DNA from: Anaerolineales bacterium
GTDB lineage: Bacteria > Chloroflexota > Anaerolineae > Anaerolineales > Villigracilaceae
DNA length: 7,735 nucleotides
Direction of reading: 5' to 3'
Assembly: GCA_025938055.1 (NCBI GenBank)
Contig: JAICQC010000221.1
Span: forward strand, 1 to 7,735
The notes below the pieces were generated by a model, which was not told the DNA's origin, ran no database searches, and was given only the letters and a program-made list of their open reading frames with translations. Numbering within the stretch: the stretch's first letter is position 1; each line of letters begins with the position of its first letter. The translations under genes and the position numbers were made by a program. Of the stretch, positions 1 to 7,735 are shown one piece after another.

Positions 1-536
1 ACGCCTTGGGTGCGACTATGAACGAAGATTCTGACCTCCCCGACGGGCGGTTTGTTGCCTGGTTAGGCCAGTTTCAGTGGGGACGGCAACTCGGGGTATG
101 GAACAGCCAGGTGTTCTTTCGAGTAGATATGCAACTGACTACTGAGCCGCTCTTGCCGCTAGAGCAGATTGCCATCGGAGGACGTTTCAGTGTGCGCGGC
201 TACCGGGAGAACACGATGGTACGAGACAATGGCTTCATGGTCTCAGTGGAAACCCGCATTCCTTTGATTCAGAGCCGCCGATGGGTAGAGTTTTTGCGGA
301 TCGTCCCATTCATCGATTTTGGACGGGGCTGGAACCGTAAGGTGCCGACACCCGAGCCAACGAACCTGGCCAGCATCGGCGTGGGCCTGCAGTGGTCAAC
401 GACGTGGCGCACCGCCATACCGCTTCGAGCCTATTTTGAAGTTTTTTGGGGGCATAAACTGCTTGACGTTGAAACATCAGACGGTAATTTACAAGATAAA
501 GGGTTGCATCTCCAGTTCGTCTTGTCAGCATTTTGA
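1..536 (+). CDS. TpsB/FhaC/ShlB-family outer-membrane transporter, C-terminal part
   Basis: This is the C-terminal ~178 codons of an outer-membrane beta-barrel that exports TpsA exoproteins in two-partner secretion. The frame is open to the left edge, so the gene is 5'-truncated by the window; the TTG at 6 and ATG at 18 are internal codons. The strongest evidence is IAIGGRFSVRGYRENTMVRD around 171-231, which holds the VRGY motif conserved in the FhaC/Omp85 superfamily and followed by the usual RDNG and E-x-R-I-P-L strand. Alternating polar and hydrophobic strands follow, and the protein ends LQFVLSAF with a terminal Phe, the usual signal for barrel assembly by BAM. The POTRA domains would lie upstream of the window. 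It converges on the DUF928 gene across 91 bp. Its substrate is plausibly the TpsA-like protein at the right edge (inference). Family assignment is secure; substrate is not. Confidence 0.9.
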   Translation, partial: ALGATMNEDSDLPDGRFVAWLGQFQWGRQLGVWNSQVFFRVDMQLTTEPLLPLEQIAIGGRFSVRGYRENTMVRDNGFMVSVETRIPLIQSRRWVEFLRIVPFIDFGRGWNRKVPTPEPTNLASIGVGLQWSTTWRTAIPLRAYFEVFWGHKLLDVETSDGNLQDKGLHLQFVLSAF

Positions 537-566
537 GCTGATATTGGTTTGCCCTGATACGACTTG

Positions 567-582
567 TAATTTGACCAAATTA
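567..582. repeat. 16-bp AT-rich palindrome in convergent gap
   Basis: TAATTTG-AC-CAAATTA is a perfect inverted repeat with a 2-base centre, in the 91-bp gap between the converging TpsB and DUF928 genes. The spacer is too tight for a classical terminator hairpin and there is no GC-rich stem, though the surroundings are AT-rich (TAAATTTTCATTT follows). It could be a protein-binding dyad, a weak bidirectional terminator or chance. Confidence 0.35.
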
Positions 583-627
583 AATTTTCATTTAGAGTCG
601 GCTATCCCATCTCATCCGAGTTGTCCA

Positions 628-1443
628 TTATTCCTTATGTGGTCGTAGATCAGAAGTGGTCACTTCTTTAGGCATGCCTACTTGTTCAAGCAAAAAGGCA
701 CGTTGTTGCCGGAAATCCCTATTCTGCGGTGCAGACGTTATCAAATCCGAGATGGACGACAAGGCGTCATACCAGAGACCAGTCCTAGCATAGAGATGAG
801 GATGTAATGCTTTACTTGACCGTGCCATTTCTAGACGGAATTGCTTTAAGAGTTCAACACGCTCCATAAGACGTCGCTGATCTGGTCCACTAACCTTGGC
901 GAGTTCTCTCTGGAGGAGTTCCTCGGATTCCACTTCGATTGAGCCCGTCGCGACGAGATTTTTTGAGGGTGTCTGAGGATCAAGTATCAGCGCTACGGAC
1001 CATGTATACGTATTGTTAGGTTCTAAGTGCTTACCATGGTCTGTCAATTGAATGCGTTGGATGCCGGGATGGTGAGGGGAGGCGAGACGCGTTTGCAACA
1101 GAGGGGATATGGCCCTTCTACGACTAATCGTAAATTCGATGGGATGAGTCGTTAATGCTGAAAGATACCAATAGAGTTCTGGCTGTTCTCGCATGGTCAG
1201 ACCTGTACTTTCGGGCGCCAGCACTGCCACCGTTGGCAAGTCTTTCTCAAGCGTGCGTTTAGCCGTTGCGATGCGACCGCGGGGCGTGCCACGTGGTATG
1301 TACAACGGCATGCAGTCCGGAGTGGTCGCGTGTTGGATGGGCTCGGCACTGTGCGGGTGACTATACGCGGTATAATGCCAAAGGAATACAAGCCCAAGAC
1401 CTCCGATCGTAGTCACCCATAAGCTGAGCTTTTCGGACTTCAT
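628..1443 (-). CDS. DUF928 domain-containing protein
   Basis: A 271-residue protein matching the DUF928 family, whose biochemical function is unknown. Residues 9-28 form one hydrophobic segment after MKSEK, a signal peptide or N-terminal anchor, so the rest is probably periplasmic. The recognisable core is PRGTPRGR (50-57), then VLAPESTGLT (74-83), EQPELYWYLS (86-95) and a beta-rich region with GIQRIQL (127-133) and NNTYTWSVALILDP (143-156). The C-terminal helical part contains GLWYDALSSISDLI (222-235) and a final RAFLLEQVGM (248-257), also typical. It is the last gene of the CHAT-CHASE2-DUF928 set, 89 bp after CHASE2, with its own strong Shine-Dalgarno sequence. Family members often sit beside CHAT, CHASE2 and two-partner-secretion genes, but no activity is established. 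Confidence 0.87.
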   Translation of the reverse strand: MKSEKLSLWVTTIGGLGLVFLWHYTAYSHPHSAEPIQHATTPDCMPLYIPRGTPRGRIATAKRTLEKDLPTVAVLAPESTGLTMREQPELYWYLSALTTHPIEFTISRRRAISPLLQTRLASPHHPGIQRIQLTDHGKHLEPNNTYTWSVALILDPQTPSKNLVATGSIEVESEELLQRELAKVSGPDQRRLMERVELLKQFRLEMARSSKALHPHLYARTGLWYDALSSISDLITSAPQNRDFRQQRAFLLEQVGMPKEVTTSDLRPHKE

Positions 1444-1448
1444 CTCTG

Positions 1449-1455
1449 TCCTCCT
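1449..1455 (-). promoter_or_regulatory. Ribosome binding site of DUF928 gene
   Basis: AGGAGGA on the minus strand, 5 bases before the ATG at 1443. It is the strongest Shine-Dalgarno sequence in the window and fixes the start of the DUF928 gene. CHASE2, the gene before it, has none that I can see. Confidence 0.8.
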
Positions 1456-1532
1456 GAAGTAGCATCAAAGTACGCTCTGTCTTTCCCTCCGCCGCTAAGG
1501 TTGGACATGGGGACATCAAAGGCTGCCGTGTC

Positions 1533-2921
1533 TCACTTAAAGAGCTCGGGAATCAGAGGGGCAATAATTGCTGCCGCGATGCTGATGATCGTATTCTTCT
1601 TTGGCTCTGGCAGCCCCATGTCAAAGAACACCAGGCTGAACGCTGCGAGTATCACGCCCAAAAGCAGCAAGAATACTGCGATTTTTTTCTTATCCCTCCT
1701 GTGACCTGACTTGCTTTCTGGCAACTGGCTTCCCCAGTTCCGCATATGGATTGAGACAATCACGACAGACATTAACCACCCGAGTCCCGCAGGGATGTCG
1801 GGAATCCACCAGCTATATCCAGACGCCACATAGACAGCAGCACCAAGGGCCCCAAGGCAGGCAGAGCCCAAAATAACAAAGCGCCAGAGTGAGATCGTCC
1901 ACAGTCCCACTAGGCCGCCCAGTATACTCCACCCGAGGATCCACAATGCTTCTTGCCACTCAGGCCACACCTGAATAAGCGAGCTTTCTTTACCGCCAAG
2001 CCGAAGCAATTGGCTAACGATATGAGCTTGGAAAACCAAGCCGGAAATCTCTTGTTCAGCATCTCGCCACCGGCTGTATGGCGTAGAAAAGGTATCTGCC
2101 ACGCTTTCAGCTGTCACACCTATCAGGACAACTTTGTCTTTGACCGCTTCTGACGGAATCTCATCTGAGAGAAGGGATGTCAGAGAATAGGAGGGGAAAC
2201 AGTCGGGCGTATTACGAAAATCAAGTAAAATTTGGTATCCACTGTCGTCGGCCCTGATGTATCCGCCGTCATTGGCTTCAAACGGCCGAATAGTTACGCG
2301 TCCTAGCTGAGTCGGTGACGGGTTGGCAAGGTTACGGGGACGGGATTGCTCCCCCGCCTGAAAATACAGATGTGCCAATCGAAAAGCAAACGCATACGCG
2401 ATATTTTTTTCTGCATCCATGGATAGAAGCGCCCGCCGAACATGCCCGTCAGCATCTTGCATAAGTCCATCGCTAAAACTGACCTGCGCCTCGCTCCCCA
2501 CAGCCGGAGGCGGGATACGCTGTCCCTGAACGCCAACGTTCATGGTAACGATAATATTGGGATTGCGGATCAGTACCGCTTCTAGCTTGTCATGTCCAGG
2601 AGGAACAGGGAGGTCCCGATAGAGATCCAACCCGATGGCGCGTGGCTGATGCGTTATGAGATTTTCGAGCGCCTGGGCCAAGGCGGCATCCGTTACGGGG
2701 TAACCGTGGGTTTGTATGTCCTCCTCGGTGATCGTGATAAGTACAAGGGGGTTATTTGAGACGCTATGGGCGCGTAGTGCGATTGCCAAATCGTACGTGG
2801 ATAGTTCGAGGAATTCGAGCCATCCGGCGTAACGCGCCGCCATAATGCTGCAAAAGACAAAGAGGCTGCATGCCAAACTAGCCCAGAGTGCGGTCCTTCT
2901 ATATCTATGCTGAGAACTCAT
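1533..2921 (-). CDS. CHASE2 domain membrane protein without an output domain
   Basis: A 462-residue integral membrane protein with an extracytoplasmic CHASE2 sensor domain. TM1 is about residues 11-29. The CHASE2 domain (~38-305) shows the typical opening (STYDLAIALR, then NPLVLITITEEDI at 57-69), AIGLDLYRD (95-103), and the closing KVVLIGVTAESVADTFSTP (263-281) and EISGLVFQAHIVSQLL (291-306). Three membrane helices follow at about 325-343, 347-366 and 376-392, then a basic loop (GHRRDKKK, 406-413) and two more hydrophobic segments at about 413-433 and 444-458. Known CHASE2 proteins usually carry a kinase, cyclase or similar domain after the helices; here there is none. It starts 16 bp after the CHAT stop codon and no good Shine-Dalgarno sequence is visible, suggesting translational coupling. 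The ligand is unknown. I infer that any output works through a partner, plausibly the CHAT protein. Confidence 0.9.
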   Translation of the reverse strand: MSSQHRYRRTALWASLACSLFVFCSIMAARYAGWLEFLELSTYDLAIALRAHSVSNNPLVLITITEEDIQTHGYPVTDAALAQALENLITHQPRAIGLDLYRDLPVPPGHDKLEAVLIRNPNIIVTMNVGVQGQRIPPPAVGSEAQVSFSDGLMQDADGHVRRALLSMDAEKNIAYAFAFRLAHLYFQAGEQSRPRNLANPSPTQLGRVTIRPFEANDGGYIRADDSGYQILLDFRNTPDCFPSYSLTSLLSDEIPSEAVKDKVVLIGVTAESVADTFSTPYSRWRDAEQEISGLVFQAHIVSQLLRLGGKESSLIQVWPEWQEALWILGWSILGGLVGLWTISLWRFVILGSACLGALGAAVYVASGYSWWIPDIPAGLGWLMSVVIVSIHMRNWGSQLPESKSGHRRDKKKIAVFLLLLGVILAAFSLVFFDMGLPEPKKNTIISIAAAIIAPLIPELFK

Positions 2922-2937
2922 GACGGAAGCGCTTATT

Positions 2938-5643
2938 TCATAGCCAATTATTAATTAACAGAAAAGGTGCCCAGAAAGCGGGATGTTGATAATCTTGTAC
3001 ATCGTCAGCTGAGTCGATTAGCGCCAATTGAGCTTGCTGAAGGGCGATAGCCCTGGAAACATTTGTCTCTTTCAGCTGTCGGTAAAACTCGGCTACTAGC
3101 TGTACAGCCGCAGGATCATCGATAGTCCACAGGGTCGCGAGCGCACTTTTTGCGCCGGCTTTGACGGCAAGGCCGGCAAGTCCTAGAGCTGCACGCTCAT
3201 CGCCAGCTGCTGTTTCGCAGGCGCTTAAGGCCAACAATTCCAATGGATTATCCCGGAACCGAAAGCGCTTCACAAATTTCTCAAGACGATCAAGCGTCAG
3301 GCGATCATCGGACGTGAGAATATATGTTTGTTCCGCTTCACTTTGAAACTGTGCGTGCGAAGCAATATGCACCATAGTGAGATGCGGATCTTGCAATCTT
3401 TTTTCCAAGGAAGCGAGGGAGAAATCTTGATCCGGCAACAGAACGCTGTGCTTTGGATAAAGCTCTCGTATGATATGGAGTTCCTCAGCAACCTCTGGCA
3501 GGGGAGGGAAGCCATGTGCGGGTGCAGCTAAACCTGCAGCCAGGATTTTTGTCTTTTCTCGTTGTAGAGGACGAGGCGCTTGCAGGCTAAGTCCCGGCGT
3601 AATGGCTACTGCATATTTTTGAATAAGAAATTGTTCACCATCGACCAATGCTGCCATGGGAATAGTAAGCAACGGCCCATCAGGCACGAAGACTAGCGTA
3701 TCCGTGCTAACCGGCAGATCCTTTTCGAAAGGACGAATCAGCCATTCATAGAGCTGTTGGGCATGAGGAAGAAATTCCCAGGTGCGTTGATCTTCTAGCT
3801 TCTTACGCAATTCTTGGACCTCTTGCGTGATCACATCTGCACTGACCTGCACTGGATATCGCAGTAGACCCTTTGGCATTGTTACAAGCAATTCTAAGCG
3901 ATCTCTCAGGATAAGCGGATACACGATCACAGCGGTGGGGAATATATTCAAGACATCATCCAGCGGAGTAAGATCCTTTTGTTCGCGATCGATACAATCA
4001 TCCCGAAAATAATCTTGTAACTCTGCCGCCTTAAGCCGTTCCGCTGTTTCACGAGCTTCTGCAAGAAGGCTATCCTGTTTTTTTACATGCTGCGATGCCG
4101 ACTGTTGCAAGAGAAGATCGACGAATCCAAGAAACACAGGTTTCACAGTCTCACGGAAAGATGATGGGACCGGGCCAAAGCGAGTCACTACGTCGGGATC
4201 CACAGACTGCAAAGTCTCTACAGCCTGCCTGTATGACTTTGTGGCTTCCTCAAGTTTTCCCTGCGCTTTAAGCACCCGTCCTGCCTGCCACTGCCATTGG
4301 TACAGAGACTCTGGCGCCTTCACTTGCTGGGCGGCAAAAATCGCCCGCCGAGTCAATTGTAAGGCTTCATTGCACTGTTGTTCATCTTCGTACAGGCGAG
4401 CGAGATATCCCCAAGCGTAGGATGCTGCCCGCAAGTCGGTAACGGCTTTTGCAACAACGGATGCTTCATGAAAGACCTTACTGGCTTGCAGTAATAAAAC
4501 ATCCATTGCGCGATCGCGCCTCTGTGGAATCGTAGAGGTAGCACTGGCATGGTGTGTCTCTGACAGACGTACCATACGACCGCGACAGCCGGAAACTTGT
4601 GTTGAAATGCCAGGACTGAGAGGAGCCAAGTTGTTTGGCTTGCGAAGTCGCTGCCAAAGGTTATAGTAGACGAGGCCAAGATTAAGCAAAGTGTACGCTT
4701 TGTCGTGGGAAACAGGTAATTCCTGCATGAATTCCCATGCTTCATTCAGGTGTACGGTAGCTTCCTTGTACCGTCCATCTTGCGTCGCGGCCATTGCCGC
4801 GTGAGTCAGCGCTCCTGCGGCCCTTATATGGCTGGCAATTTTCCTTGACAATGTAGTACTTTGTCTGTATGCATCAAGTGCTTTCTCGTATTTATTCTTA
4901 GCCATAAATAGATTCCCGATATTGTTTAGAATCACGGTCTCAAGACCTATATTGTCTTCCTCTCGTACTAGGGAAAGTGCTTCGTATAAATATGTTTGAG
5001 CTTGATCCCACAACTCGGTTGCAAGGTAAACATTACCCAGATTAGCCTTAATGAAAGCAAGTTGTTTTCGATCAACAAGTTTTTTACCCTGTAATAAACG
5101 TTGAGCGGAATTTAAGGCTTCTAAAGAGGCGCTATATTGGCCAAGGGCATGGAAACCTTGAGACACATGGGTAAGAGCCATGCTTTGGGCCAGCGCATCT
5201 CGGGCATTTTTGTAGAATCGAGCTGCTTCTGACCAATGGATAACAGCCTGTTCAAAATCTCTGCGTTGGAATGACGCAACACCCTGAGCCATACACCATT
5301 TTGCTGATGAGCATGCCGGGGAAGCAGCAGATTTGGCCCATGCTGAGCCAGGAGACATCAGTATAGGCCAAAGAGGACCCACATACCCCACAATCAGTAC
5401 CAGCAGGGGCCAAGCGCAGGACGAAAGGCCTCCCCTTCCTTTTTGGCAGAGTCCTGCTGGAAGACCATGAATAAGTGTTGTTGTGCTTCCGGCACCAATC
5501 GTGCGGCTTATACACTGCGAAAACGAACCCGCAATCCTTATCATGTCCATGTGTCTCTCATCCTGAAACCCCATAGATTGTCTACTTGGCTGCTGATCTT
5601 TCCGTTTCACGAGTTCAGCCAGCATTTGTGCGGCTCTTTGCAT
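2938..5643 (-). CDS. TPR-CHAT caspase-like peptidase, exported, with IS-derived N-terminus
   Basis: CHAT (caspase HetF associated with TPRs) is a clan CD cysteine-peptidase domain. In this 901-codon frame residues ~120-330 and ~375-480 are TPR-like helical repeats (for example AFIKANLGNVYLATELWDQA and VILNNIGNLFMAKNKYEKAL), presumably for binding partners. A polar linker at 335-378 separates the two blocks. The CHAT domain spans ~561-901. Candidate catalytic residues are both present: His763 in HIASHAQF and Cys809 in LLALSACETAAG, followed by the family's GLAGLAVKAGAKS and LW segments. A hydrophobic stretch at ~75-97 ends in SAWA-KS, a plausible signal-peptidase site after 103, so the mature protein may be periplasmic. 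Residues 1-17 lie inside the IS at 5593-6115. The ATG at 5643 has a good IS-derived Shine-Dalgarno sequence, but native starts are probably 5574, 5550 or 5544. CHASE2 follows after 16 bp. Family assignment is firm; substrate and start are open. Confidence 0.92.
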   Translation of the reverse strand: MQRAAQMLAELVKRKDQQPSRQSMGFQDERHMDMIRIAGSFSQCISRTIGAGSTTTLIHGLPAGLCQKGRGGLSSCAWPLLVLIVGYVGPLWPILMSPGSAWAKSAASPACSSAKWCMAQGVASFQRRDFEQAVIHWSEAARFYKNARDALAQSMALTHVSQGFHALGQYSASLEALNSAQRLLQGKKLVDRKQLAFIKANLGNVYLATELWDQAQTYLYEALSLVREEDNIGLETVILNNIGNLFMAKNKYEKALDAYRQSTTLSRKIASHIRAAGALTHAAMAATQDGRYKEATVHLNEAWEFMQELPVSHDKAYTLLNLGLVYYNLWQRLRKPNNLAPLSPGISTQVSGCRGRMVRLSETHHASATSTIPQRRDRAMDVLLLQASKVFHEASVVAKAVTDLRAASYAWGYLARLYEDEQQCNEALQLTRRAIFAAQQVKAPESLYQWQWQAGRVLKAQGKLEEATKSYRQAVETLQSVDPDVVTRFGPVPSSFRETVKPVFLGFVDLLLQQSASQHVKKQDSLLAEARETAERLKAAELQDYFRDDCIDREQKDLTPLDDVLNIFPTAVIVYPLILRDRLELLVTMPKGLLRYPVQVSADVITQEVQELRKKLEDQRTWEFLPHAQQLYEWLIRPFEKDLPVSTDTLVFVPDGPLLTIPMAALVDGEQFLIQKYAVAITPGLSLQAPRPLQREKTKILAAGLAAPAHGFPPLPEVAEELHIIRELYPKHSVLLPDQDFSLASLEKRLQDPHLTMVHIASHAQFQSEAEQTYILTSDDRLTLDRLEKFVKRFRFRDNPLELLALSACETAAGDERAALGLAGLAVKAGAKSALATLWTIDDPAAVQLVAEFYRQLKETNVSRAIALQQAQLALIDSADDVQDYQHPAFWAPFLLINNWL
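5589..5592. repeat. Target-site duplication, left copy
   Basis: GCTG directly outside the left inverted repeat of the IS remnant, repeated at 6116-6119 directly outside the right one. Four bases match by chance about once in 256, so this supports rather than proves the boundaries. It lies inside the CHAT reading frame. Confidence 0.7.
5593..5605 (+). repeat. Left terminal inverted repeat of IS
   Basis: CTGATCTTTCCGT, an exact reverse complement of 6103-6115. Identity ends at the outer edge of both copies. Inside, the match is only partial (TTCACG against ATGACACG). Confidence 0.85.
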
Positions 5644-6058
5644 GATGTCTCTCCCTGCTCCGGGCTGTCGCTATGTGCGGCTGCGGGCTCGAAGTCGCAC
5701 CTATGGAGAGGTGGTGCTCGTGGTGGTGGACAAACCCGGTGAAAAGCCGTTTTACTTGATCTCGATGTCCCTGGACATCCAGGTGACGCGGTTGATTCAG
5801 GCGTGGAATCAGCGCCACTGGATCGAGCACATGTTTCGCATCATGAAGCACCTGTTGGCGGCGGAGGCTTGTCAAGCGCGGAGCGAAGACGCCTACTACG
5901 GTCATTTTGTCTTGCGTCTGATCGCGGGCTTTGCCTTGTTTTATACGAGCCGGTTCATCTTCAAAGGTCAGGTGACCATGGAAGAGATGGTGTTTACGTT
6001 GAAACATCACTGGATGATAGTCGATTACGAGCCCTTTGAATTATATGCGATTGCATGA
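5642..6058 (+). pseudogene. Transposase remnant, C-terminal DDE region (IS4 superfamily)
   Basis: A 138-codon frame holding only the last part of a DDE transposase. Residues ~20-45 form beta strands (EVVLVVVDKPGEKPFYLIS), as usual just before the final catalytic Glu. Residues 55-69 (WNQRHWIEHMFRIMK) fit the IS4-superfamily Y-x2-R-x3-E-x6-K signature exactly in spacing: W55 in place of Tyr, Arg58, Glu62 and Lys69. A helical tail follows to a TGA at 6056. The two catalytic Asp residues and the DNA-binding N-terminus are absent, so it cannot be active. The apparent ATG-ATG start at 5642 has no Shine-Dalgarno sequence on this strand and is probably an accident of the deletion. The minus-strand CHAT frame begins at the same spot, so the two overlap by 2 bases. 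Confidence 0.85.
5651..5656 (-). promoter_or_regulatory. Shine-Dalgarno sequence for CHAT, lying within the IS
   Basis: AGGGAG on the minus strand, 7 bases before the ATG at 5643. It is better than anything before the downstream candidates: the ATG at 5574 has none, and the ATG at 5550 has only a weak AGGATGAG-like stretch. Because it lies inside the IS, it would be a translation signal captured by the host gene. Confidence 0.5.
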
Positions 6059-6102
6059 TCACCTAGGCGGAACCCCGCGACAATACGGGATAAACGTGTC
6101 AT

Positions 6103-6115
6103 ACGGAAAGATCAG
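6103..6115 (+). repeat. Right terminal inverted repeat of IS
   Basis: ACGGAAAGATCAG, an exact reverse complement of 5593-5605. It lies 44 bp downstream of the transposase stop codon, a normal position for an IS right end. Confidence 0.85.
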
Positions 6116-6119
6116 GCTG
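6116..6119. repeat. Target-site duplication, right copy
   Basis: GCTG immediately outside the right inverted repeat, matching 5589-5592. The 83 bp from 6120 to 6202, up to the stop of the secreted-protein gene, are the original host flank. They hold no gene or clear terminator. Confidence 0.7.
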
Positions 6120-6202
6120 TTGCTATTGCGCCAATGTGTAAACTGGCGGAATCATGAGATCGGCAGATCATTTTGTCGCACATTAGAGCTATAGTATGGC
6201 AC

Positions 6203-6745
6203 TCAGGGTAATGGTATAAGTTGCATACTAAACGGTGGAAAAAATTGCGTGTCAAGATCGATGGTCGCCTGGGCCAAAAATGCCGCTGTACTAAAGGGTT
6301 GAGGTAATGTCTGGCATGTCCCATCTAGTGACAGGATCGATCTTGCGGTGATCGATTGACTGCTATTGGGACCTGAGACTAATATTGTATTGCCAGGGGG
6401 TGCTACCACAACAGGAGGAAACAATACTGGGATGACTGCATTGGGCGTAACACTGATATCTACCAAGAACCTGGGTCCTGTGCAGTCAACCGATTCGAAA
6501 AGCAGCTGTGTGTTCCCAAAAAATCTATCTTGAGTGACTACGAGTGGAATGAGCTGTCCATTCAGGTTAAAGGGAATTATGGGCTGTCCTTGCGCACTGA
6601 TACCAATTGTATCGCCTATTTTGGTACCATTAGCATCACTGATCCGTAATACCTGTGCAGTTGCAGGTGAAAGACCGTGGCTAGTGATAAAAATTATCGC
6701 TGGTAATATAAGCACTACTATGCGTATTTTCCCATCTGATATCAT
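6203..6745 (-). CDS. Small secreted hypothetical protein
   Basis: A 180-residue protein of no family I recognise. Residues 1-30 form a classic signal peptide: Lys6 and Arg8, a hydrophobic core IVVLILPAIIFI (9-20) and an ATA-QV cleavage site after Ala30. The mature ~150 residues are rich in beta-branched residues, Pro and Gln (for example IPVLFPPVVVAPPGNTILV), suggesting a beta-sandwich-like fold. They contain exactly two cysteines, Cys88 (VDCTG) and Cys144 (DGTCQ), which could form one disulfide in the periplasm or outside. The gene begins 93 bp after the TpsA-like stop codon on the same strand, with AAGGGA 9 bases before the ATG. It may be an accessory to the TpsA/TpsB pair (inference). Its stop now lies 87 bp from the IS right end. 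Confidence 0.75.
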   Translation of the reverse strand: MISDGKIRIVVLILPAIIFITSHGLSPATAQVLRISDANGTKIGDTIGISAQGQPIIPFNLNGQLIPLVVTQDRFFGNTQLLFESVDCTGPRFLVDISVTPNAVIPVLFPPVVVAPPGNTILVSGPNSSQSITARSILSLDGTCQTLPQPFSTAAFLAQATIDLDTQFFPPFSMQLIPLP

Positions 6746-6754
6746 GACACCTAT

Positions 6755-6760
6755 TCCCTT
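6755..6760 (-). promoter_or_regulatory. Ribosome binding site of small secreted protein
   Basis: AAGGGA on the minus strand, 9 bases before the ATG at 6745. A TATTAT at 6782-6787 could be a -10 box, but no matching -35 box is visible at the right spacing, so I do not call a promoter. Confidence 0.45.
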
Positions 6761-6838
6761 TCCAAAAGAAAAAATTCTTTCATAATAGGATAAAGAAACC
6801 TTCCTCTAGGCCTTCCTTCTGAGTGAATGTGCCTGTGT

Positions 6839-7735
6839 CTATTGGTTCCACCGTATAATGCATTTCTGGTTCCATATCATGGGTAACCCTCCTGGCTCAA
6901 GTTGACTTTTCACCTGAAAGGGATCATCGTTGGCGGCATGACGCGTATCCGTTCCAGAGGTAAATGGTGCTTTCGAGTAGCCTTCATTCTCTGTCGTACT
7001 GGCGGTTTCCTGCTCCAGCCAGTAGAGGGACTTTGGAACCACACCGCTAGGAACAGCTGGAGCGCTGGATCGACGCGATTGCACAAAACTGCTGGTTTCG
7101 CCCTCCCGCCACTGCTCTGCGCACCGTCGGGATAACAACACAGTTGGTAAAAAGCCTTGCGGTAGTGTCGTCACGGTCTCGCTGAGATTCGTCAGCGTCA
7201 AGATGTCGACCTCGCCGTCGATCCCCAAAGCTGAGTCAGCTCTCACTCGGCTGACTGTATCGGGCAAAAACGCATCTGCCGTGATGTGGATCTGACCTCC
7301 TTGTCCCTGTAAAGCATTTGCTACTACATTACTGGATTTGAGAATACCAAATCTCGTATCAATCGTGATGTTACCTCCAGTGGTCGTCGGCCCACCGCCG
7401 ATCGTCGTAGTGATATCACTGTTCTGCAGCTGTATCAATTCCTGGACCCTCAACGTGATATCGCCGCCATCTGTAGCATTGGATGCCACCGACACAGCAC
7501 TGCTCTCACTCAGAAACATATCATCGGTCGTAATGGTAATACTGCCGGCCTTGCCAGTGCCGACACTTTGTGCGGTAATGACCGCTCTCCCAGAGAGATT
7601 TAACGTTTCGGCTTCCACTAAAATTGAATCCGCCTGGCCAGGGCCCAAGGTCCCGCTAGCAATCTGAGCCCCTTCTGTAAGGATTATATGGGTAGCCTGC
7701 ACGTCGATGGTGCCCGCGTTTCCGGCTCCCCTATC
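6839..7735 (-). CDS. TpsA-like filamentous haemagglutinin-type exoprotein, C-terminal part
   Basis: The last 298 codons of a large secreted beta-helical protein of the two-partner-secretion type. The frame is open to the right edge, so the N-terminal signal peptide and TPS domain lie outside the window; the GTG at 7702 is internal. About 170 residues consist of imperfect beta-helix coils with recurring G-x-AG-x-I-x-I patterns (GAGNAGTIDV, GKAGSITITTDDMFL, DGGDITLRVQELI, GGNITIDTRFG, GQGGQIHITADAFL). A conserved end module follows: SALGIDGEVDI (around 7202-7234), then LPQGFLPTVLLSRRCAEQW and GETSSFV. This type of ending is typical of large exoproteins paired with FhaC/ShlB transporters. Beyond it is a ~75-residue Ser/Thr/Gln-rich tail with a second Cys near the end. 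The TpsB gene end at the other side of the window is the obvious candidate exporter. Role is probably adhesion or a surface structure (family inference). Confidence 0.88.
   Translation of the reverse strand, partial: DRGAGNAGTIDVQATHIILTEGAQIASGTLGPGQADSILVEAETLNLSGRAVITAQSVGTGKAGSITITTDDMFLSESSAVSVASNATDGGDITLRVQELIQLQNSDITTTIGGGPTTTGGNITIDTRFGILKSSNVVANALQGQGGQIHITADAFLPDTVSRVRADSALGIDGEVDILTLTNLSETVTTLPQGFLPTVLLSRRCAEQWREGETSSFVQSRRSSAPAVPSGVVPKSLYWLEQETASTTENEGYSKAPFTSGTDTRHAANDDPFQVKSQLEPGGLPMIWNQKCIIRWNQ

Follow-up and report, generated by a model that had tools for sequence, protein, structure and literature searches.

An internally deleted IS701-like element places an in-frame start signal ahead of a CHAT-domain gene

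Where does translation of a CHAT-domain gene begin when a mobile element lies in its leader? The question is posed by the window studied here (the whole stretch of 7,735 nucleotides that was analysed), in which the longest frame of the gene opens inside an insertion sequence (IS). The genes of the window are the following.

3-536, plus strand: end portion of a ShlB/FhaC transporter gene
628-1443, minus strand: DUF928 gene
1533-2921, minus strand: CHASE2 gene
2938-5643, minus strand: CHAT-domain gene (TPR repeats and CHAT, Pfam CHAT), 901 aa counted from the IS start
6203-6745, minus strand: exported-looking 180-aa orf (orf180)
6839-7735, minus strand: filamentous-haemagglutinin-like frame (our own label; no Pfam match)

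The CHAT frame is open and its CHAT domain is complete (residues 627-897; E 2.7e-56; 191.6 bits, passing the Pfam gathering cut-off of 24). The insert is located between orf180 and the CHAT gene, with these boundaries.

5593-6115, plus strand: internally deleted IS701-like element of 523 bp, recognized by its terminal inverted repeats (TIRs), target site duplication and transposase remnant
5593-5605, plus strand: left TIR, 13 bp, CTGATCTTTCCGT
6103-6115, minus strand: right TIR, 13 bp, identical to the left repeat
5589-5592: target site duplication GCTG, copy 1
6116-6119: target site duplication GCTG, copy 2

When positions 5400-6300 were base-shuffled 3000 times, a 13-bp inverted repeat with its arms more than 300 bp apart arose in four shuffles, and one that also carried a 4-bp flanking repeat arose in none. 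The structure of the element is clearly beyond chance. With TIRs and a target duplication enclosing a transposase that is not intact, the insert has the composition of a MITE-like non-autonomous IS derivative. It is scarcely credible that these boundaries are wrong and that residues 1-17 of the CHAT frame are native: the TIRs with their duplication, the transposase remnant between them and an in-frame stop in the empty site (see below) all argue against it, although no second DNA-level copy of the element was encountered in the plasmids, viral contigs and genomes searched. Specifically, full-length copies at the DNA level were not found in plasmids (searched by DNA and by protein), in viral contigs (searched by alignment and by relative as well as by protein), in seven genomes carrying homologous loci or in 295 genomes from the phylum to which G004 belongs, one of which gave a weak match at 23% identity. 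A TIR-like 18-mer in viral contigs was also considered and set aside; the 13 stretches recovered each hold one copy of the TIR core, which by a rough estimate is near chance.

The interior of the insert points to a large deletion, placed by transposase homology.

5642-6058, plus strand: 138-aa ORF, C-terminal end of an IS701-like transposase
5642-5648: internal deletion junction, approximate, from tblastn match starts and the numbering of relatives

Residues 3-138 of the ORF correspond to the C-terminal end of the transposase, from residue 298 of full-length relatives, and identity to relatives reaches 92-93%. The NCBIfam IS701 profile matches the remnant over positions 270-355 of 363 (E 4e-8). 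The peptide MSPMKRY is the beginning of six longer transposase relatives, in five of which residue 300 aligned with window residue 5; in P0258 this alignment pattern was not found, and the residue equivalent to window residue 5 lies earlier. When 76 transposase relatives of at least 300 aa were compared with the insert by tblastn, 50 of the 83 long matches began at IS nucleotide 56 (window 5648) and none began earlier. The left end was touched by 27 matches, with a best E of 0.09 among the 20 matches listed. In default of a full-length copy to compare at the DNA level, the junction is given as an approximate interval. By this homology the element retains some 50-55 bp at the left, its right end and the final ~136 codons, and has lost ~297 codons together with the rest of the 5′ leader.

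The family assignment was made by comparing the element with the published description of IS701, which in the accessible part of the source comprises a 4-bp target duplication, a length of 1400-1550 bp and a YREK motif lacking the Y (PMC2266710). GCTG is duplicated on both sides of the insert, and the remnant carries the motif without its tyrosine as W55-R58-E62-K69, a W-R-E-K arrangement; 227 transposase relatives were examined, and of the 181 pattern matches they gave, 170 show it. IS701 models were the best NCBIfam matches for the remnant, at 32.9 bits and hence below the curated cut-off of 150, and for all seven longer relatives tried, each again under the curated cut-offs. The 4-bp duplication and the W-R-E-K residues are held in common with the family (PMC2266710, as accessible), whereas the short length, the truncated transposase and the ends set the element apart; IS701 models match it best, but at scores under the cut-offs. 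At 523 bp the element falls well outside the family range because ~297 codons were deleted internally. Its end CTGATCTTTCCGT agrees by eye with the IS701 consensus ---YACT-Y--YR at three of seven fixed positions, and that consensus is stated, in the same part of the source, not to stand for the entire family (PMC2266710). On these resemblances the element is called IS701-like.

The start signal facing the CHAT gene lies at the deletion.

5641-5643, minus strand: IS-encoded ATG (ATG 5643), with which the 901-aa CHAT frame begins, on the left-end side of the junction
5651-5656, minus strand: Shine-Dalgarno (SD)-like AGGGAG, on the transposase side of the junction, -8.2 kcal/mol

The two are separated by 7 nt, and an SD of this strength or better occurs in 3.0% of minus-strand 20-mers in the window. 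Protein homology shows the pair to span the junction of the element's deletion. The tetranucleotide CATG at 5641-5644 is common to the plus-strand ORF and the minus-strand start, and one codon of the transposase that falls within the SD tract encodes P in the window, compared to H in most relatives (74 of 98 pattern matches). Read outward on the minus strand, the left end has three phases, one of which stays open over 26 codons containing ATG 5643, ATG 5625 and GTG 5610, and the insertion set this phase in the CHAT frame. Residues 1-17 of the frame, MQRAAQMLAELVKRKDQ, are consequently derived from the insert. The preliminary description of this DNA had placed the left IS end inside the CHAT frame and had assigned these residues, ATG 5643 and AGGGAG to the IS; the TIRs, the target duplication and the open frame bear this out. 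That description was silent on the internal deletion and on a start signal straddling its junction.

How readily would such an arrangement arise? Among 20000 random 523-bp inserts, an in-frame start was supplied by 52% and an in-frame ATG by 25%, so the in-frame start by itself is not remarkable; a start with an SD of -8.2 kcal/mol or stronger was supplied by 3.5%.

Removing the insert and one GCTG restores the empty site, which reads TAG CAA CAG CCA AGT AGA CAA TCT ATG on the minus strand. The join agrees with the earlier claim of an in-frame TAG seven codons ahead of ATG 5574. None of the seven sense codons is ATG, GTG or TTG, and the further claim that no ancestral start lay upstream of 5574 therefore stands. 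Three native candidates follow.

5572-5574, minus strand: ATG at residue 24, the earliest possible pre-insertion start, without an SD (-1.6 kcal/mol)
5548-5550, minus strand: ATG at residue 32, the likelier native start, with a weak SD (-4.1 kcal/mol)
5542-5544, minus strand: ATG at residue 34, a possible native start (-3.6 or -2.9 kcal/mol, depending on the window used)

The insertion point is 18 bp upstream of ATG 5574, and ATG 5574, ATG 5550 and ATG 5544 are all intact. The earlier statement that the IS had replaced the start of the CHAT gene is accordingly not upheld: three native ATGs survive, and therefore nothing was replaced.

A hydrophobic, signal-like segment begins at residue 79 of the CHAT frame, leaving 78, 55, 47 and 45 residues ahead of it (the n-region) for ATG 5643, 5574, 5550 and 5544, respectively. 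The expected length of this region was taken from homologous loci, of which 33 (8 + 25) were examined and, after one duplicate, 32 were distinct; they share 35-50% identity with the window and do not represent the same locus. The TIR core was absent from all 33 and no significant match to the element was detected in them (best E 0.18). With the start in each of these loci taken by rule as the one with the best SD, and not by experiment, the distance from start to hydrophobic segment had a median of 20.5 residues and extremes of -6 and 112; it exceeded 47 residues in two of the 32 loci, 50 in two and 78 in one. Since 78 and 55 residues are long by this measure, ATG 5550 or ATG 5544 is favoured, and ATG 5574, which also has the poorest SD, is the weakest of the three native ATGs. 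Nevertheless, n-regions of 45-47 residues would be at the long end of the range, and this counts against the native starts too.

Judged by SD, ATG 5643 resembles a genuine start more closely than do the native ATGs, because its SD is the best of the four compared (-8.2 versus -1.6, -4.1 and -3.6 kcal/mol) and an SD of that strength or stronger stands at the best start of 9 of the 32 homologous loci. An IS start that serves as the main start, with AGGGAG and ATG 5643 producing a hybrid 901-aa protein of 17 IS-encoded and 14-16 former-leader residues ahead of the native sequence, is accordingly a tentative alternative to which we give roughly one chance in every four. Its SD with 7-nt spacing, stronger than those of the three native ATGs, and its fully open frame speak for it, but an n-region of 78 residues is surpassed in a single homologous locus and in one of 98 annotated homologues, an in-frame start is explicable by chance (if much less readily with such an SD, as above), and a simple scan of 5300-6300 revealed no sigma-70-like promoter, which is weak evidence given that 0.9 would be expected in shuffles. 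An IS-supplied promoter was considered in the same connection, and the failure of this simple scan to find one does not exclude it. Some initiation at ATG 5643 is plausible if a transcript spans the IS end. Two terminator-like sites were also noted in the scanned region, both on the plus strand.

Protein comparison was used to ask which residues are shared with other CHAT proteins. The 119 homologues aligned are the best 119 of 425, are at most 62% identical to the window protein and do not represent the same locus without the IS. Within this set the earliest alignment began at residue 61, and 115 of the 119 began within residues 70-129, in keeping with the prediction that conservation would begin at or after residue 24. 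Scored against the same best 119 of 425 in 17-residue blocks, residues 1-17 and 18-34 were within the range of 20 shuffles; block 35-51 was slightly above it (median 20 versus 15-19), those spanning residues 52-119 fell inside it, and conservation became clear from block 120-136 (median 46 versus 15-21). Descent of residues 1-17 from a sequence that these homologues share was considered and rejected, the score of the residues lying in the shuffled range. A hydrophobic segment was present in 98 of these 119 annotated homologues, again the best 119 of 425, and began beyond residue 55 in one of the 98.

A further feature lies close to the signal segment.

5429-5440, minus strand: strong SD-like tract AGGAAGGGGAGG, -11.2 kcal/mol, a strength found in 0.67% of minus-strand 20-mers

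This tract is the strongest SD within residues 1-100 and precedes the hydrophobic segment by 2-6 residues. Downstream of it no in-frame ATG, GTG or TTG occurs until GTG 5391, which is inside the hydrophobic segment. The tract may be fortuitous, may stem from an error in the sequence, or may mark a start that was lost. If an original start followed it, next to the signal peptide, and was lost or is masked by a sequence error, the gene would now rely on in-frame ATGs farther upstream, among which the IS ATG, alone in having a good SD, might have taken over, or the gene might be decaying; we regard this as improbable. The position of the tract is the one at which several homologous loci begin (L004, L008, L026, L028, L035 and L038, with n-regions of 4-8 residues), and the coding signal is weak over residues 24-74, where the codon-usage score of -0.08 is slightly lower than the -0.05 of the lowest-scoring window in the frame of the gene. 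Out-of-frame scores range from -0.94 to 0.01 and thus include this value, although the other two frames of residues 24-74 score lower (-0.26 and -0.29); the score therefore does not mark residues 24-74 as coding, which counts against the native starts as well. Residues 75-125 are also near zero (0.02) though many homologues align there, so the comparison carries little weight. Conversely, n-regions span 5-35 residues in the four loci titled Nitrospira (L002-L005), and greater length is therefore no anomaly; a strong SD-like tract would fall within 75 nt by chance in an estimated few per cent of cases (from the 0.67% above); and the gene retains a complete CHAT domain in an open frame. The more specific version, in which the original start beside the signal peptide was lost and the deletion-assembled SD–ATG pair of the IS now drives CHAT translation, is very unlikely. 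Were it true, a remnant of a mobile element would have rescued translation initiation of a host gene, and not merely its transcription.

Taken together, these results support, with somewhat better than even confidence, an account in which a deleted IS701-like element inserted ahead of the gene, brought an in-frame start by chance and left the native start in use, the extension being a by-product. An internally deleted and presumably non-autonomous element inserted in the leader that separates orf180 from the CHAT gene; by chance the left end of this element reads open into the CHAT frame and so adds to it an in-frame ATG preceded by a good SD. The native start is intact, with ATG 5550 or ATG 5544 the likeliest, and would still give a functional exported CHAT protein, with the 31-33 extra residues made only in part or never. 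Of the two outcomes offered by the preliminary description, use of the hybrid start or retention of the native one, the second is thus preferred here. That the extension is a by-product is most likely, and the IS start, having the best SD, may nonetheless be used. The insert sets CHAT, CHASE2 and DUF928 523 bp farther from the genes that precede them in the cluster, and this added distance for the CHAT gene and those after it would be the clearer likely effect of the insertion.

Small elements that provide a start to a neighbouring gene have precedent. According to the accessible part of its description, MITEAba12 of Acinetobacter is a 113-bp element mobilised by ISAba12 that generates 9-bp duplications and whose ends contain start codons; for three copies, an ability to provide the initial four residues (MQQS) of the adjacent host gene is reported (PMC6382973). 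As far as that part shows, MITEAba12 and the window element are alike in being small non-autonomous IS derivatives with an outward start joined to a host gene; the window element differs in its 523-bp length, IS701-like character, 4-bp duplication, 17 contributed residues and SD–ATG pair across a deletion junction (PMC6382973). Fusion of a small-element start to a host gene is thus already published, and the present case is a small further example. Enterobacterial RU elements are likewise described, in the portion available, as fused in frame to genes, once at an N-terminus (YP_0349) (PMC2759123), and Rickettsia palindromic elements as undergoing in-frame fusion to genes, as reviewed in part in PMC10969869. 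These too, on the excerpts available, are small mobile elements adding peptide to annotated host proteins, but they form many-copy repeat families, whereas the window element was seen as a single copy and lies upstream of the native start (PMC2759123, PMC10969869). A literature search at the level of titles and abstract openings returned no direct case of an IS-supplied start codon, and a limited search, mostly of titles and abstract openings, returned no instance of a start signal put together across the junction of an IS deletion.

Should the IS start be in use, the case would show how a deleted IS can furnish a whole start signal for translation, the SD coming from one side of its junction and the ATG from the other. 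If it is not, the case warns that a protein may be credited with residues of a mobile element when the longest frame is chosen for it. Under both readings it is a natural case that bears on the tolerance of exported CHAT proteins for long extensions at the N-terminus.

The setting of the gene has a counterpart in Candidatus Nitrospira defluvii (L004), where a transporter-like frame (3624-5342) and an 802-aa frame (5430-7838), both named by eye without a family search, precede a CHAT gene (7887-10352); a CHAT gene beside secretion-type genes is therefore not unique to the window. Candidatus Tectomicrobia appears among the named protein relatives of both the CHAT protein (P0005, 52%) and the transposase (P0168, 63%).

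A single CATG stands at the deletion junction (window 5641-5647) of the internally deleted IS701-like insert, where it forms both the beginning of the truncated transposase ORF on the plus strand and the IS-derived start of the CHAT gene on the minus strand. Five relatives of the transposase (P0135, P0146, P0151, P0153 and P0159) are ORFs of 127 aa, every one of which starts at an identical internal codon, the V that precedes RLRA. It looks as though copies that are broken, or deleted in their upstream part, were frequent in this IS group.

Within the CHAT gene, a very strong Shine-Dalgarno-like tract (5429-5440, minus strand; -11.2 kcal/mol) immediately precedes the signal-like segment of the protein. 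Downstream of this tract, no in-frame ATG, GTG or TTG occurs before the GTG at 5391.

An exported-looking orf of 180 aa (6203-6745, minus strand), without a match in either Pfam or NCBIfam, is placed between the insert and the haemagglutinin-like gene. ShlB/FhaC-type genes and large exported-looking genes adjoin CHAT genes both in the window (1-7735) and in the homologous locus of Candidatus Nitrospira defluvii (L004, 3624-10352). No publication matching at least three of five terms describing this association was found.

Finally, a stretch of 17 nt at the end of the transporter gene (463-479) recurs in direct orientation, with a single mismatch, in the transposase remnant (5993-6009), probably by chance.
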